Shown here: piece after piece, positions 11,260 through 64,000 of the stretch | How the letters are laid out: each line of letters opens with the position of its first letter | Position numbering within the stretch: the stretch's first letter is position 1 | Source: Clostridiales bacterium | GTDB lineage: Bacteria; Bacillota; Clostridia; Christensenellales; Borkfalkiaceae | Assembly (NCBI GenBank): GCA_015069615.1 | Contig: SVIF01000006.1 | Location: 1-64,000, forward strand | DNA: 64,000 nucleotides | Direction: 5' to 3' | Made by a program: the position numbers and the translations under genes | The notes under the pieces: generated by a model | What the model was told of the DNA's origin: nothing | The model's database searches: none | Seen by the model: the letters and a program-made list of their open reading frames with translations, nothing else

Positions 11260-12459
11260 ATGAGAATTACCAAACGTGCAGCAGCAATTTCCCCCTCTTT
11301 AACTTTGGAAATTACGGCTAAGGCAAAAAAACTAAAACAACAAGGCGTGTCCGTCGTTTCTTTCGGTGCGGGCGAACCCGATTTTAATACCCCCGCCCCC
11401 ATTATGGAAGCGGCAAAGCACGCGATGGACGCAGGATATACCAAGTATACCCCCGCCTCCGGTTCGGAAGAACTGAAAAAAGCGGTTTGCGATAAGTTGT
11501 TAAAGGAAAACGGCCTTTCCTACGAACCTTCCCAAATTATCGTTTCTTGCGGTGCAAAGCATTCCCTTTACAACGCGATGCAAGCCTTGATTGAAGAAGG
11601 GGACGAAGTAATTCTTCCTTCGCCTTTCTGGCTTACCTATCCCGAACTCGTTCGTTTGTGCGGTGGGGAAGTGGTTTATGTGGAAACCAAAGCGGAAAAC
11701 GCGTTCAAAATGACCGCAAAGGATTTTGAAAAGGCTATCACGTCTCACACTAAGGCGCTTATCTTAAACTCGCCGAACAATCCTACGGGTGCCGTTTACA
11801 CGAAAGAAGAACTTTTCGCGATTGCAGAAGTAGCCGTAAAACACGGTATCTTCGTAATTTCGGATGAAATTTACGAAAAGTTGGTTTACGAAGGCACTCA
11901 GCACGTTTCTATCGCTACGCATAGCGAAGCAATGAAAGATTTAACCGTGGTTATCAACGGTATGAGTAAGGCGTTTGCTATGACGGGTTGGCGTATCGGT
12001 TACCTTGCCGCTCCCAAGGACGTAGCAAAGGCGATTTCGGGTATTCAAAGCCACGAAACCAGCAACCCTTGTTCAATTGCTCAAGCAGCGTCCGTTGTTG
12101 CCCTTACGGAAGACGACGGCTCCTTAGCTACCATGCAACAAGCGTTTGCGGAACGCCGTAAATTTGCGGTTGCGCGTATTCAAGAAATGCAAAACGTAAC
12201 TTGTGTTGTTCCCGAAGGCGCGTTCTATATTATGGTAAACGTTTCCGCTTGTTACGGGAAGAAATTCGGTGAAACAGAAATTACTGGCTCGGTATCCTTT
12301 GCAAGTGCTCTTTTAAACCGCGGCGTTGCGGTAATTCCCGGCGCGGCGTTCGGTGCGGATGATTACGTTCGTCTTTCTTACGCAATCAGTAAGGAAGAAA
12401 TTGCCGAAGGTTTAAATCGTTTGGAATCCTTTATTCAAGAGGTTATCAACAATGGCTAA
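11260..12459 (+). CDS. Class I aspartate/aromatic-type aminotransferase
   Basis: SFGAGEPDFNTP; NSPNNPTGAVYTKEEL; SDEIYEKLVY; PLP lysine in NGMSKAFAMTGWRIGY; start reassigned from 11161 to ATG with RBS aaggag. Confidence 0.93.
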   Translation: MRITKRAAAISPSLTLEITAKAKKLKQQGVSVVSFGAGEPDFNTPAPIMEAAKHAMDAGYTKYTPASGSEELKKAVCDKLLKENGLSYEPSQIIVSCGAKHSLYNAMQALIEEGDEVILPSPFWLTYPELVRLCGGEVVYVETKAENAFKMTAKDFEKAITSHTKALILNSPNNPTGAVYTKEELFAIAEVAVKHGIFVISDEIYEKLVYEGTQHVSIATHSEAMKDLTVVINGMSKAFAMTGWRIGYLAAPKDVAKAISGIQSHETSNPCSIAQAASVVALTEDDGSLATMQQAFAERRKFAVARIQEMQNVTCVVPEGAFYIMVNVSACYGKKFGETEITGSVSFASALLNRGVAVIPGAAFGADDYVRLSYAISKEEIAEGLNRLESFIQEVINNG

Positions 12460-38804: not shown

Positions 38805-39268
38805 TTTAAACTTCATAATATTTAATCAGTAGTGATGCTATTGTGGGTGGAATAATTGCGGGGTATCTTGCTTTCATGCGGTTGTTATGCTACTTTTTAA
38901 TTACAATCGTGCTACCTATGGTTGCGTTTTTTGAAGATGTTAAAGTAACAGTTATTGTTTGCGGTGGTAATAACGTTTTTAGTTTTACGTAGAATCCAAG
39001 CCATCACAAATATAAATTTTAAGCAAAAGTGTGTTGATAGACGTGTGCCCTATCTTGTATAATGCATGTATTTTCTTTTGTACAACAAAACCGGAATACG
39101 GTATTAGTTGTTGCGATAGGGCAATTTGGGTGAACGGTCAAAAACTCAATAATTACTATAAATCATTATACATTTGTTCATATGCGTAAATGGGTATTTG
39201 TTTTTATTTGGAGTAGGGAAGGGGTTGTACATGCCTGTTAAAACAATAAAAAATCAGCCTAAATAGTG

Positions 39269-39363
39269 TATTATGCGTAACATAGTACTAGGCAAAGGGC
39301 AAAAATTCACAATTCACACTGTGTATTTTGGCAAAATTAGTAGTACTATGTTACACATTATAC
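39269..39363. repeat. ~95-bp element with 23-bp imperfect terminal inverted repeats
   Basis: GTATTATGCGTAACATAGTACTA (39269-39291) versus reverse complement of 39341-39363, GTATAATGTGTAACATAGTACTA: 2 mismatches. Confidence 0.65.
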
Positions 39364-54915: not shown

Positions 54916-55860
54916 ATGGGTGAAAAACCACAAATTTTGATTGTTTGCGGTCCAACGGCGTCGGGGAAAAGTGCGCTTGCGGTGGCACTTGCAAAAAAAC
55001 TGAACGGAGAAGTGGTTTCTGCGGATTCCATGCAGATTTATCGCGAATTTTCGGTGGGAACTGCAAAACCGACGATAGAAGAACAAAGGGATATTCCGCA
55101 TCATATGATTGACTGTGTGCCGCCCAACGTTCCTTTTTCGGTGTCAGACTACGCAACGCGGGCAATTCCGATCATTGATGATATTCTTTCACGCGGGAAG
55201 GTTCCGGTAATTTGCGGTGGAACGGGTTTTTACGTCAACTCTTTGTTGTACTCGCTAAGTTATGGAAATCACGGCGGGGACGAGCATACTTTGGCTGTTC
55301 GGAAAAAGTATATGGATATGCTGCCCGTTCTTGGTGAAGAGGGTATTTATGCGAAATTGTGTGAAGTTGATCCCGTTTCTGCCCAAAAGTTGCATCCAAA
55401 CGACGTAAAAAGGGTAATTCGTGCATTGGAAATTTACGAAACCTCGGGAATACGTAAATCGGATATTGTGGATGATTTAACCCCACGCTATACATATTTG
55501 GCTGTTACGCCTTCATGGGATAGGGAAGTTCTCTATAACCGCATCAATCAGCGTGTTGAGTTAATGCTGCAAAATGGTTGGGTGGAAGAGGTGGCCTTAT
55601 TACAAAAATTAGGGCTTTCAAACGAAATGCAATCCATGCAGGCCATTGGATACCGTGAAATTGCCTTTGATTTGGCAAATTTTGGCAAATTGAACGATAC
55701 TACGCCAGACATAATAGCGAAAAATACGCGAAATTACGCAAAGCGGCAGATAACTTTTTTTAAACGATTACCTAATTTACAGTATTTAGATATGAAAAAA
55801 CCGTTTGCCGAAGTGGTAAACAGCGTTGTTTCCTCTTTTTTAGGAAAAGAAGCGAATTAA
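54916..55860 (+). CDS. miaA: tRNA dimethylallyltransferase
   Basis: VCGPTASGKSALAVALAKKL; SADSMQIYREFSVGTAKP; GGTGFYVNSLLY. Confidence 0.97.
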   Translation: MGEKPQILIVCGPTASGKSALAVALAKKLNGEVVSADSMQIYREFSVGTAKPTIEEQRDIPHHMIDCVPPNVPFSVSDYATRAIPIIDDILSRGKVPVICGGTGFYVNSLLYSLSYGNHGGDEHTLAVRKKYMDMLPVLGEEGIYAKLCEVDPVSAQKLHPNDVKRVIRALEIYETSGIRKSDIVDDLTPRYTYLAVTPSWDREVLYNRINQRVELMLQNGWVEEVALLQKLGLSNEMQSMQAIGYREIAFDLANFGKLNDTTPDIIAKNTRNYAKRQITFFKRLPNLQYLDMKKPFAEVVNSVVSSFLGKEAN

Positions 55861-57230: not shown

Positions 57231-58334
57231 CTATTCATTTTCTTCGTTTTCGGTTAAATGGGGAAGGTTGGCCGTTTCTTGCGCTTCGTTATTTTTTTGA
57301 TTTCCCAAAAATACGGAGTTTGCGGCAGCCCTACGAATATCGTCTGAAATTGCAGCGTAGTGGCGTTTCGTTGTGTTAACGTCGCTATGACCTAAAACGT
57401 CTGCAACTACGTAAATATCGCCCGTTTGCCGGTATAAATTCGTACCGAACGTGCTACGTAGCTTGTGCGGAGTGATTTTTTTGAGGGGAGTTACGATTTG
57501 GCTATACTTTTTAACTAAATTTTCAACAGCGCGCACGGTAATGCGGCGGTCCTTTTCAGAAACAAACAGTGCACTTTCAGTTTTGGGTAGATTCGGGCGT
57601 TTTGCGCGTGCGGAAATCCATTCCAACAGGGGTGTTTTTACTTGATCCGAAAAATATAGGATTACGCGATTGCCCCCCTTTCTGGTTACGCGGAAACCAT
57701 TGACCGAAAAATCAATATCTTCAACGTTTAAACCAACCAATTCACTAATGCGGATGCCCGTTCCTAAAAACAAGGTAATCATGGCTACGTCGCGAATTTT
57801 TGTTTTTTGGTGTGCGGCTTTTTGGCGGGGTGTTAGTCCTTCGCCATTTTCCACCACCGAAAGAAGAGATGAAAGCTCGCCATCTTCTAAGCGAATAATT
57901 TCTTTTTCATGCAACTTAGGCATGGAAAGCTTTGCTGCCACGTTTGTGTTAATACGATCCCGATTAAACAAGTATTTGTAAAAGGAGCGAACGCTTGCAA
58001 TTTTTCTGGCTTTCGCATGTTCTTTACAATATTCACGCTTTCCGTTAATTTCATACGAAGAAAGGTAACCTGAATAGCGTTCTAAATCATCTGTACGCAA
58101 ATTTTCTAAGTCTTCAAGAGTTATTTCGTTTGGTTTTTTCCCGCGAAATAGTTTTTCACATAAAAAACGGAAGAAAATTCTAAGATCATACGCATAATTT
58201 TTACGTGTTAAGGGAGAGGTTACGTTTTCAATGCCTATAAAGTAATCAGAAGCAAAAGAGGGTAGTTCGTTTAAGATTTCGTCTACCGTTTTTCTGCAAT
58301 TTTCATCCCGTTTTACATAATAATCGTTGCGCAT
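57231..58334 (-). CDS. Tyrosine recombinase, Xer-like
   Basis: SAM-like N-terminal domain; catalytic GTGIRISELVGL, RKGGN, HKLRSTFGTNL, LGHSDVNTTKRHY. Confidence 0.93.
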   Translation of the reverse strand: MRNDYYVKRDENCRKTVDEILNELPSFASDYFIGIENVTSPLTRKNYAYDLRIFFRFLCEKLFRGKKPNEITLEDLENLRTDDLERYSGYLSSYEINGKREYCKEHAKARKIASVRSFYKYLFNRDRINTNVAAKLSMPKLHEKEIIRLEDGELSSLLSVVENGEGLTPRQKAAHQKTKIRDVAMITLFLGTGIRISELVGLNVEDIDFSVNGFRVTRKGGNRVILYFSDQVKTPLLEWISARAKRPNLPKTESALFVSEKDRRITVRAVENLVKKYSQIVTPLKKITPHKLRSTFGTNLYRQTGDIYVVADVLGHSDVNTTKRHYAAISDDIRRAAANSVFLGNQKNNEAQETANLPHLTENEENE

Positions 58335-58445: not shown

Positions 58446-59987
58446 ATGAAAACACTAAAGATAAAACACAATTCAAATTTTCCTTTCATTCATCTGCGCC
58501 CTTTTCTATTTGCGGCGCTAGGTTTTATTTTAGGAGTTTTATCTGTATTTCAATACGCGATTTACGGTAAAACCTTTCTTTTTATCCTATTTTTCGCACT
58601 AGTAGTCCTTTTATTTTTAATTTCTGTTTATCAATTTTTCCGCAAAAAATCTAAAATTTTATTGTTTTGTTCAACAATTGTATTTTTCTTTGGAGTATGC
58701 GGTGGGGTTGTTTCGTTTATGCAGGTTTCTGCATATGAACGTGAAGAAATCTCAAACGGGTATTATACCGTTTATGGTACAATTCAGGGCGAGTCAGAAT
58801 TGGAAGACGGATATAGTTTGATGTTATCTGATTTAACATTTAGATCGCATGATGAAACAATTTATTCTAAATATCAAATGCACTTAATTGTTTTTGATAA
58901 AAGGGAGGAGCTTTCTATCGGGAAGCGTATTAAAGCATATGCAAAGATACAAATGCAGGAGAAAGGCGAATATTATTCCTATCAAATGGCAAATGGTATA
59001 AAATACGTGGCGTTTGTAGGGGATAGTACGGTAAATATTGTTGGTGAAACGAAAAATTTCTTTACTAAAATACGATTAAAAGGGATTTCTATTTTAGAAT
59101 CCTTTTTAACGGGAGATCCTCTTTTTCTTTCCACAGGTATCCTGTTTGGGGATACCGCTGATATGGGCGAAGATACACTGGTTCAATTTCGTAAACTGGG
59201 AATAGCTCATATATTTGCCGTTTCAGGCTTGCACATAGGCTTTTTATGTTTAATCATAACAAAATTGCTACGTAGAACAGAAGCGCGCAATCCCATTCGT
59301 TTTCTTTTGCCCACCATTGCTGTATTTTTGTATGCGGGTGTGTGCGGTTTTACGCCTTCTGCCTTGCGTGCGGCAATTATGTGTGCTACTACATTATTCT
59401 TCACTTATATTGGCGCGCCATACGATAGCCTAAGTGGTGTTTTATTTAGCGCAATTGTTGTTTTGACGATCAATCCGGCAGACGTGATGTCGTACGGATT
59501 TATTCTTTCATATGCGTGTGTGCTATCTATTATAATCCTTGCTCCAATATTTAAACGCTTTTTGCGTCCTTTACCAGCTAAAATAGGGGATAGTTTAGCA
59601 ATTTCTCTGGGAATTCAAGTAGGCGTTTTTCCCATACAAATGTTGTTGTTTGGGTTTGCTGCGCCCATTTCTATATTGCTAAATCTAATTTTTATTCCCA
59701 TAATTACGGTCCTATATATTCTTTTAGTGCTATCCGTTTTGTGCGTGGCTATGCTACCTGAGTTTGCGTTGATATTAGTTTGTTTTCAAAAAATATTTGA
59801 AGTGCTATTATTGATCATAGGTAAAATTCCCAGCAACTTTACGATTGGCAGTTTTGATATTCGTGGGGGAGTGGCTGCGTATTACTTAGGCGTATTCATA
59901 TCCTCTTATCATGTAAATCTAAAAGGATGGGTAAAAATAGTTTTAGCCTCAAGTTGCTTTTTAACGTTCCTAATTATAGTATTGTAA
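58446..59987 (+). CDS. comEC: ComEC/Rec2-type competence membrane protein, short form
   Basis: DUF4131-like N-terminus then FRKLGIAHIFAVSGLHIGFLCLIITKLL...GFTPSALRAAIMCATTLFFTYIGAPYDSLSGVLFSAIVVLTINPADVMSYGFILSYACVLSI; no metallo-beta-lactamase domain in frame. Confidence 0.88.
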   Translation: MKTLKIKHNSNFPFIHLRPFLFAALGFILGVLSVFQYAIYGKTFLFILFFALVVLLFLISVYQFFRKKSKILLFCSTIVFFFGVCGGVVSFMQVSAYEREEISNGYYTVYGTIQGESELEDGYSLMLSDLTFRSHDETIYSKYQMHLIVFDKREELSIGKRIKAYAKIQMQEKGEYYSYQMANGIKYVAFVGDSTVNIVGETKNFFTKIRLKGISILESFLTGDPLFLSTGILFGDTADMGEDTLVQFRKLGIAHIFAVSGLHIGFLCLIITKLLRRTEARNPIRFLLPTIAVFLYAGVCGFTPSALRAAIMCATTLFFTYIGAPYDSLSGVLFSAIVVLTINPADVMSYGFILSYACVLSIIILAPIFKRFLRPLPAKIGDSLAISLGIQVGVFPIQMLLFGFAAPISILLNLIFIPIITVLYILLVLSVLCVAMLPEFALILVCFQKIFEVLLLIIGKIPSNFTIGSFDIRGGVAAYYLGVFISSYHVNLKGWVKIVLASSCFLTFLIIVL

Positions 59988-60110: not shown

Positions 60111-60146
60111 TATCTATTCGCAAAAGTCTTGTTTTGCGAATAGATA
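60111..60146. repeat. Perfect 15-bp inverted repeat, 6-nt loop
   Basis: TATCTATTCGCAAAA gtcttg TTTTGCGAATAGATA. Confidence 0.9.
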
Positions 60147-61419: not shown

Positions 61420-61574
61420 GTTTGGGGTTCCTCCCACATGTAATTTTTCTACCTATATTGTACTATAAAATTTAAAAATTGTCTATATAATAGCTGGATT
61501 TTTTTAAAATTTCAAAATTTTTATTGTTTTAGTAAGATTTTTTTACATAAATTGTCTGACATACTAATTTGCAA

Positions 61575-61603
61575 TTGACAGACTTATCACTTTGCGGTAT
61601 AAT
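61575..61603 (+). promoter_or_regulatory. Consensus promoter of the PadR-like gene
   Basis: TTGACA-17-TATAAT. Confidence 0.85.
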
Positions 61604-61641
61604 AAACGTATATAATACGTTTACAAAAGGTAGGTGCACTA

Positions 61642-64000
61642 TGGATTTTGATGAAAATAAATACGGAAAATCCCCCTTTTTAGATGACGACGAGCAAAAG
61701 AAGTATGATTCACCCGTAAATGCGGAAAGCGCAGAAAGCGACGATGATGACGATTTTTTTCCGACCTGGCAACGAAAAAGTTTTTTGGAACAAACATTAA
61801 AACGTGATGAAGATGAGGAAGAAGACGACTTTTTTAAGTCTTCTCCCCTTTCATATTCCATTTATGACGATAAGGATGAAGACCAATCGGCCCCCTTGGC
61901 GGACTCTTCCTTTTTTGCGTTAGATACCCCCGAAGATGATGATGAAACGATGGAAATTTCCAACAATAGCGAAACTGCGGACGAAATTTCTATCCAAAGC
62001 GAAATTAACGCAAATGAAGATGATTTCCAAGAAAATGCCCCTTCTTTTAACGAAATGACAGATGCGAACGAAGTAGCAGAAGCGGATGATGAAGAAATTG
62101 ATACGTCCGATATCAGCGATTCGTTGGAAATTGTAACGGAAGATAAAGAAACGCTTGATGTAAATGGCACGATAGCGGAATCGGAAGATATCACCGAAGA
62201 AACAACGTCAGCTGTAAAAGATGAAGATATTGACCAAAACGAAATTATTGAATCAAACGAAGAAGAAAGCGTTTTGAGAATAGATGACAACTTAATCGAA
62301 CAGGAAAATACCGCAAAAGATACCGAATTTGTGGCAGATGCCGACGTGGAAAGTAAAGAACAACCCGAAACTGATGAACTATTCCCCCAAGAAATAGAAG
62401 AAACGAACGAAACAAACGCGGAAGCTTCTGTTGAAGGAAGCAGTTTAGACGAATCTATTCAAGAAGCAGTGTCTCAGCCTTCGGTTACAATTAGCAGTGA
62501 TTTAATTCGCGGACATATAAATACCATCATTTTAAGAACGCTTAGTGAAGGTGATCGCTACGGTTTAGAAATTATTCAAGAAATTGAAAGAAAAACGTGC
62601 GGTCAATATACGATAAAACAACCCACTTTATATAGTTCCTTGCGCCGTTTAGAAAATAGCGGATATATCACTTCATATTGGGGATCTGGCGAAACCAACG
62701 GTGGTAGACGCCGTTACTACGCTTTAACCGATAACGGAAGAAAAATTACCGACCAAAACCGCGCAGAATGGGAATATTCGCGCACAATTATTGATAATTT
62801 AATTTCCACCAAGGAATATGACTTAAATGCTACGCCTCCTACCGCGATTGATTTTACGTTGTTGAAAGGCGCAACCACCCGTGTTTTTGGTGCTGACCGA
62901 AAAGAATCCGAAAAAGAAATCAGTGCAATGGAAGAAAAGCGCGAAGAACTCCATAGGCAAATGGAAGAAGAGCAAGACGCGCTTGATCGGTTAAAATCAG
63001 AGCGAGACGACGTTAATTTGGCGCTTTCAGAAACGCTTGAAAAGACCCGCGAAATAGAACAATTGCAAGCAATGCGCTTGGAAGAACTAGAACAGCAAAA
63101 AGCTGAACTGGAAAAATTAAAGCGTGAACAAGAAGAAATTGCACTTGATATTTCCAGAAAACAAGAATATGCAAATGCAATTCCCACCGTTAGCGAAATG
63201 GAACGTACCGAAAGGGATTATAAAAACATTTTAGGTAGAATTTTCCCCCAAGAAAACGTACAATCTAACGAGCCAATGGTGAACGCAACTGAAACCTTAA
63301 CTAATTATAATGCACAACCCGAACCGGAAGAAGAAAAAATCGCAGAACGCGACGGTGATTTTGAAAAATATCCAGATTTTTGGAGTTTTGAAGAAGAAAC
63401 TGTGAAAAATTCGACTAAAAATGAAGAAAAAAATGCGTTTGTTCGTATGGATGAAGCCGAAAATAATCACTTCCCCGAAACGGAAACTTATGAGCGTAAC
63501 GATAATTTTTCCGAATTTATTCGCAAGCACACCGAAACTTCCGAAGAAATGAAACGCAGAGATGCAATTCAAGATTACGCTTCTACCCCTAAACGCAGAC
63601 AAGGAAAAATTGATTTTTCTGATATTTTTGCGTATGCAGACCGCAATCAAATGCGCGTTCGCTCGTACGTTGGCAATAAAACCGCAAGCAATCAAACACA
63701 AAAAAATAGTTTATTGTTTGTAAATAAAGTGCGCGCGTTAAGCATCTGCTTGCTTTACTTAATTATGATGTCGGAATTAGTGCTTTGCTACGTATTTACG
63801 GCAGATATCGTAGGCTGGAAAACCGAATTTTTCTATGCTGGAATTGTATTTACCGTACTTCCTGTTTTTGCACTTACTTTGCTACTTTCCGCATCGCAAA
63901 AACTAATTGTTCCGCGAAATAACGGAAAAGAAGCCCTGCTTACTTCCATCATTGTGATTTTTAACTTCTTCCTAATTTTAATCGTTTTGGCGCTGGTTAT
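61642..64000 (+). CDS. Large PadR-type winged-helix protein: acidic N-terminal region + PadR HTH + coiled coil + C-terminal TM segments (3' end outside window; missing from ORF track)
   Basis: Continuous frame MDFDENKYGKSPFLDDDEQKK...; HTH SSDLIRGHINTIILRTLSEGDRYGLEIIQEIERKTCGQYTIKQPTLYSSLRRLENSGYITSYWGSGETNGGRRRYYALTDNGRK; EEKREELHRQMEEEQDALDRLKSERDD coiled coil; RALSICLLYLIMMSELVLCYVF TM. Confidence 0.85.

Follow-up and report, generated by a model that had tools for sequence, protein, structure and literature searches.

Reviews describe only two replication fork traps, Tus and RTP, each in a small bacterial group (PMC10331603, PMC3317982), and leave open some termination mechanism near dif in species that have neither; fork-trap systems are patchy and recently acquired (PMC3317982). 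The genes for RTP and Tus each carry a ter site in the promoter (PMC10331603), and the Ter consensus of Bacillus subtilis contains WCTATGTAC (PMC3317982). PadR-s2 dimers closely resemble RTP in fold and dimer layout, and sites of an ATGT/ACAT type have been described for PadR proteins (PMC3506622). In HAAS-PadR pairs, an alternative to two-component systems, HAAS is always paired with a standalone PadR (PMC11237479).

We analyzed the first 64,000 nucleotides of a Clostridiales contig (SVIF01000006.1; hereafter the window), which end within a gene that joins a PadR domain through a long linker to a four-helix membrane domain. Its product is probably an integral-membrane PadR-type protein of terminus sites, comparable to RTP-Ter or MatP but membrane-anchored. 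The resemblance to RTP-Ter of B. subtilis lies in a predicted winged-helix dimer, two oppositely oriented sets of asymmetric sites around the terminus, one such site in the promoter of the encoding gene, and the closeness of that gene to dif. RTP differs in being small and soluble, where the PadR domain here is fused to a membrane domain; in using A plus B sites rather than one near-palindromic core; and in belonging to another Pfam family without significant sequence similarity (a search for the RTP family PF02334 gave E 0.057 in one of 22 members, and no RTP chain is among the PDB sequence matches listed for the fused protein). MatP-matS and Tus-Ter of Escherichia coli likewise pair one protein with many sites that are restricted to the terminus region; however, neither MatP nor Tus is an integral membrane protein, their DNA-binding folds are unrelated to PadR, and matS sites are symmetric whereas the terminus sites described here are polar. 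Regulators of the CadC/ToxR type also join a cytoplasmic winged helix to a membrane anchor, but theirs is one transmembrane (TM) helix with an outer sensor domain, whereas the present protein has four TM helices joined on the outside by loops of about 11-12 aa and has no extracytoplasmic domain. A literature search on membrane-bound PadR proteins found no relevant report.

A PadR domain joined to four transmembrane helices

The gene lies on the forward strand from 61641 to the window end at 64000 and closes at contig position 64136, a single open frame of 831 aa. A preliminary description of the window had recognized an open reading frame running past its end; the downstream sequence bears this out with no frameshift, but the start was placed one base off, the ATG being at 61641 and not 61642. 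The PadR winged helix with its dimerization helix, which had been placed about 285 aa into a long protein, is recovered both by Pfam and by AlphaFold2, which models it confidently at aa 286-388 (62496..62804). PadR (PF03551, aa 297-368) is the sole Pfam domain over the cut-off (E 3.8e-18; 65.7 bits against a cut-off of 27 bits), and both the conserved recognition helix KQPTLYSSLRRLE (62616-62654) and the wing GGRRRYY (62700-62720) lie within the domain. With 831 aa and four TM helices, the protein is not the compact soluble PadR of about 100-200 aa.

A very acidic N-terminal region had been noted, and it is present (aa 1-282, 61641..62486; 34% D+E, net charge -82) and predicted to be disordered, with a pLDDT of about 35 and aa 1-283 disordered in the AlphaFold2 model of the full protein; such a giant arm is, however, not general in the family, other members having 0-162 aa ahead of PadR, so that the arm length is unique to the window's species. 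Similarly, the long coiled coil that had been proposed is consistent with the long AlphaFold2 helices at aa 423-451 and 468-512 (predicted coiled coil aa 423-512, 62907..63176), but a very long one is found in only a few members. Further along are a conserved linker motif, DYKNILGRIF (63216..63245), at which AlphaFold2 places a short helix, and a conserved juxtamembrane segment, DFSDIFAYA (aa 658-666, 63612..63638). The C-terminal hydrophobic segments proved to be four TM helices (aa 700-718, 731-749, 769-787, and 799-817), all four also confidently modeled as helices, in a domain that begins at 63738 and continues through 64000; TM1 (63738-63794) and TM2 (63831-63887) are complete in the window, TM3 (63945-64001) ends at its last base, and TM4 lies beyond. 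When the domain was modeled alone with 105 homologs, the mean pLDDT was 85.5; a fold search of the PDB with this domain gave no match better than E 1.6, and a Pfam search with the C-terminus of 22 family members gave nothing convincing.

A probe of the C-terminal domain, run against 297 genomes of the order, detected the PadR-linker-4TM protein in at least 170, nearly always in single copy and including Candidatus Borkfalkia and Candidatus Gallimonas, while in a class-wide sample outside the order only five genomes matched, all marginally. Outside the order, every PadR match is a short open frame (71 to 234 aa); the fused proteins inside it measure about 390 to 990 aa. The architecture recurs far more often than chance would allow, in 127 distinct complete homologs, all but one of which (126) have exactly four TM helices. 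Positive charges in these proteins fall on the N-terminal, central-loop, and C-terminal sides of the 4TM domain, which places both protein ends in the cytoplasm, and this order-wide union of PadR with four positive-inside TM helices agrees with the earlier reading of a membrane-anchored DNA-binding protein. An acidic linker is present in 98% of homologs, and the linker motif is of the type [ND]Y[KR]xL[LV]xxL[YF], its strict pattern occurring in 93/127 homologs as compared to 0.4 in shuffles. It precedes the TM domain by 13 to 116 aa, in a linker that is otherwise disordered, and it looks like a docking site for some partner.

The C-terminal domain occurs in 141 distinct sequences, and PadR was also called in 134 of these. 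The remaining seven comprise three cut by a locus edge, two chance matches, and two real cases. One (L188, 2447-5431) is a very acidic protein of 994 aa with a degenerate helix-turn-helix (HTH), and the other (L200, 2313-3416) is a protein of 367 aa with no HTH and its own start codon, encoded downstream of a LexA-like gene; both have retained the four-TM domain as well as the linker motif. Homologs without the HTH or the TM segments had been named as grounds for refuting the proposal; these two proteins, lacking a working HTH, indicate that not every family member binds DNA and suggest that the membrane module can outlive it.

The promoter operator and its copies around the terminus

As had been proposed, a consensus promoter, TTGACA-17-TATAAT, precedes the gene (61575..61603, forward strand). 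A perfect palindrome, TAAACGTATATAATACGTTTA (61603..61623), covers the likely transcription start and is possibly a species-specific operator candidate; as a general operator it was rejected, being absent from the dyads conserved in other promoters. The fused gene is monocistronic. Its divergent neighbors are an acyl-ACP thioesterase, a YgjP-type peptidase, or a YkvI-type protein, and on the convergent side RNase Y or an RluB-DacF-GerW cluster faces it (names assigned partly by reading sequences). In the neighborhoods of its homologs, we recognized no HAAS-type gene beside it and no co-transcribed target gene.

The neighboring genes differ between homologs, but an operator in the promoter is conserved nonetheless: relatives carry the near-palindromic TTATGTCWGACATARTAC, and fused-gene promoters share the palindrome TATGTCNGACATA, extended by RTAC. 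Of the 12 positions of the TATGTCNGACATA core, at least 11 are matched in 64/127 homolog promoters (shuffles 0), and at least 10 in 81/127 (shuffles 2.6); the position is near-fixed, in most cases some 60-115 nt ahead of the gene. In the window's own promoter there is a weak match (10/12), ATTGTCTGACATA, at 61551..61563 on the forward strand. Related palindromes occur in the fused-gene promoters of families f19 and f30, and the half-site CATAGTA recurs in promoters of compact PadR-HAAS operons outside the order. The predicted site is 18-bp long and of the ATGT/ACAT type, but with a 3-nt spacer as compared to the 8-10-nt spacers described (PMC3506622). This near-palindromic TTATGTCWGACATARTAC is most likely bound by the PadR winged helix as a dimer. 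The half-site GTACTATGTC is related in letters to the WCTATGTAC of Ter, a short likeness that is only suggestive.

Copies of the operator are not confined to the promoter. The exact palindrome is present in 91/151 family genomes, in up to 17 copies, and absent from several genera among those 151; in a class-wide sample, it occurs in 25/196 genomes at 1-2 copies, which equals background, as a reversed control pattern behaves alike. In the relatives, about 6 to 35 operators per genome cluster around the replication terminus (p about 1e-9 to 1e-8 in each of G193, G246, and G124), and permuted matrices found 0.2 and 0 sites where the real matrix found 16 and 13. In G193, where the cumulative GC skew of contig C1 (823,664 bp) peaks at about 592-596 kb, 17 sites scored at least 16 before overlap merging (random sequence, none); 7/7 sites left of the peak have one orientation and 7/9 on the right the opposite one. 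The pattern is repeated in G246, G305, G160, G008, and G124. Pooled over the six genomes, with the flip set at the GC-skew maximum, the orientations are 30:2 on the left and 4:23 on the right (Fisher p=4e-10; many of the sites in genus g8 are orthologous copies, hence not independent, and with one genome per genus, from two genera, p=3e-6). For families f3 and f6, a de novo dyad search resolved no polar motif; the top f3 dyad match was a collagen-like repeat. A gene of collagen-like repeats, built of GGACC/GGTCC repeats, dominates the dyad counts in L375 (about 11300-12200; contig C2 of G026, 111.3-112.2 kb). In G012 the sites are present and the fused protein was not found, which is probably an assembly gap, because two genomes of the same genus carry the protein.

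The sites are oriented against the prevailing gene direction, and 27/46 are inside open reading frames; they are therefore not ordinary promoters of leading-strand genes, a reading we reject. Nor are they a by-product of coding, since 41% of them are in the roughly 9% of DNA that is non-coding. This repetition of the promoter operator around the terminus, with a polarity that flips there, gives strong indirect support to the earlier guess of a chromosome tether, in which the protein would bind these sites.

The dif-like element and the genome of the window

Five genomes (G193, G305, G160, G246, and G124) have a near-palindromic copy at a distance of 170-600 bp from a dif-like element, which consists of arms around a 6-bp spacer; the copy is placed, in the first four of these between xerS and what we take, from reading its sequence, to be a glycogen phosphorylase gene. 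A single dif-like counterpart is found at the terminus in G305, G160, G246, G124, G026, and G029, while in G193 and G008 the element is the best of several matches; in G008, as in families f3 and f6, it coincides with the skew maximum or lies near it. The fused gene is 0.6-76 kb from the terminus or the dif-like site across the genomes measured, with 0.6 kb from the dif-like element in G029 (f6), while some relatives with the promoter site have it about 45 to 76 kb away from the terminus.

In the window, a dif-like site, ATCTATTCGCAAAAGTCTTGTTTTGCGAATAGAT, whose arms are separated by a 6-bp spacer, lies at 60112..60145, 1.5 kb upstream of the fused gene; an XerS-type tyrosine recombinase gene (xerS, 57231..58334, reverse strand) is a neighbor at the terminus, and the GC skew reaches zero and goes negative at about 62-64 kb, that is, at the fused gene. 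Between xerS and the dif-like site, a ComEC-like protein of 513 aa (58446-59987) has matches that span the competence membrane domain, apparently without the C-terminal metallo-beta-lactamase part.

The relatives' motif is nearly absent from the window's genome, which outside this contig was searched by pattern only. The search gave two good sites and one weak site, none of them on another contig: GTATTATGCGTAACATAGTAC (39268..39288, forward strand; PWM 22.8), GTATAATGTGTAACATAGTAC (39343..39363, reverse strand; PWM 19.3), and a site inside miaA (55697..55717, reverse strand; PWM 16.6), the last matched in position by sites in miaA of G193, G160, and G305. Asymmetric sites reversed between the arms are found in six relatives and few are found here; the promoter copy is strong in relatives and weak in the window. 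The site system of this species is thus deduced mainly from its relatives, and its operator motif may have diverged from theirs.

Proposed role and its alternatives

One could envision the following arrangement. A dimer of the PadR winged helix would bind near-palindromic sites of the TTATGTCWGACATARTAC type, copies of which flank the terminus in opposite orientation, one beside dif and one in the protein's own promoter. A long linker, disordered or coiled-coil, would join this DNA reader to the four-helix membrane anchor, and we therefore propose that terminus DNA is held at the membrane. The polar layout suggests that direction is also distinguished: the protein could form a barrier to forks in the manner of RTP and Tus, or could provide a cue for the handling of the terminus close to dif; fork arrest or a part in segregation may follow. 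Anchoring of the terminus at the membrane would most likely be the role, perhaps with a polar fork barrier as well. The release by proteolysis that had also been raised found no support.

The main rival to a terminus role is control of transcription alone. Outside the order, the closest compact PadR relatives mostly lie ahead of a gene for HAAS plus multiple, often four, TM helices (in L210, L211, and L218, the HAAS protein following the compact PadR has pentapeptide-like repeats in place of the TM helices, which matches descriptions of some HAAS systems). Like these pairs, the fused protein couples a membrane module to a DNA reader of the same PadR subfamily, and by analogy it looks like a single-chain counterpart of the dyad, for which sensing of envelope state is possible. 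Under such circumstances, the 4TM domain would sense the membrane or envelope state and alter PadR binding, and the protein would repress its own gene and perhaps a few others, with the terminus sites secondary or unrelated. PadR proteins commonly autoregulate, the operator does sit in the protein's own promoter, and HAAS-PadR pairs are a published precedent (PMC11237479). However, this is one polypeptide rather than two, with no HAAS domain, no standalone PadR beside a HAAS gene, and no operon or co-transcribed target; profile comparison of the 4TM module with the HAAS-4TM partners showed no detectable homology (probability 10.7%); and a regulon of a few genes leaves unexplained 10-35 polar terminus sites, many of them in genes and facing against them. 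We therefore regard this explanation as unlikely.

Alternatively, the polar sites could belong to another protein, the copy in the fused-gene promoter being due to proximity to the terminus and the PadR-4TM protein doing something else. This could account for the window's genome having the protein yet few clear sites, and a patchy spread with recent acquisition is known for fork traps (PMC3317982). But the promoter site is near-fixed in place even in genomes that have the gene about 45 to 76 kb away from the terminus, so that nearness by chance does not suffice; compact PadR genes outside the order also have the half-site in their promoters; and the site is of a PadR type (PMC3506622), its shorter spacer notwithstanding. 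We consider this less likely still. That an assembly chimera or frameshift joined a PadR gene to a membrane-protein gene, a worry prompted by how unusual such architectures are for PadR proteins, is extremely improbable, and artifact is ruled out by the single open frame and by the recurrence of this fusion in 134 distinct sequences, which stem from many families and independent assemblies.

We thus return to a protein of the terminus. It is an attractive, if tentative, proposal that this is a third, independently evolved terminus system, in which a PadR-derived membrane protein on polar sites around dif would tether the terminus and block or steer forks or segregation across an order of uncultured gut Clostridia. 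If so, replication termination, chromosome dimer resolution, and membrane attachment would be joined in one molecule, and a PadR regulator domain would have been recruited to chromosome organization, as the structural likeness of RTP and PadR hints. Rather than simply switching genes, the PadR-4TM protein may hold or police the end point of copying.
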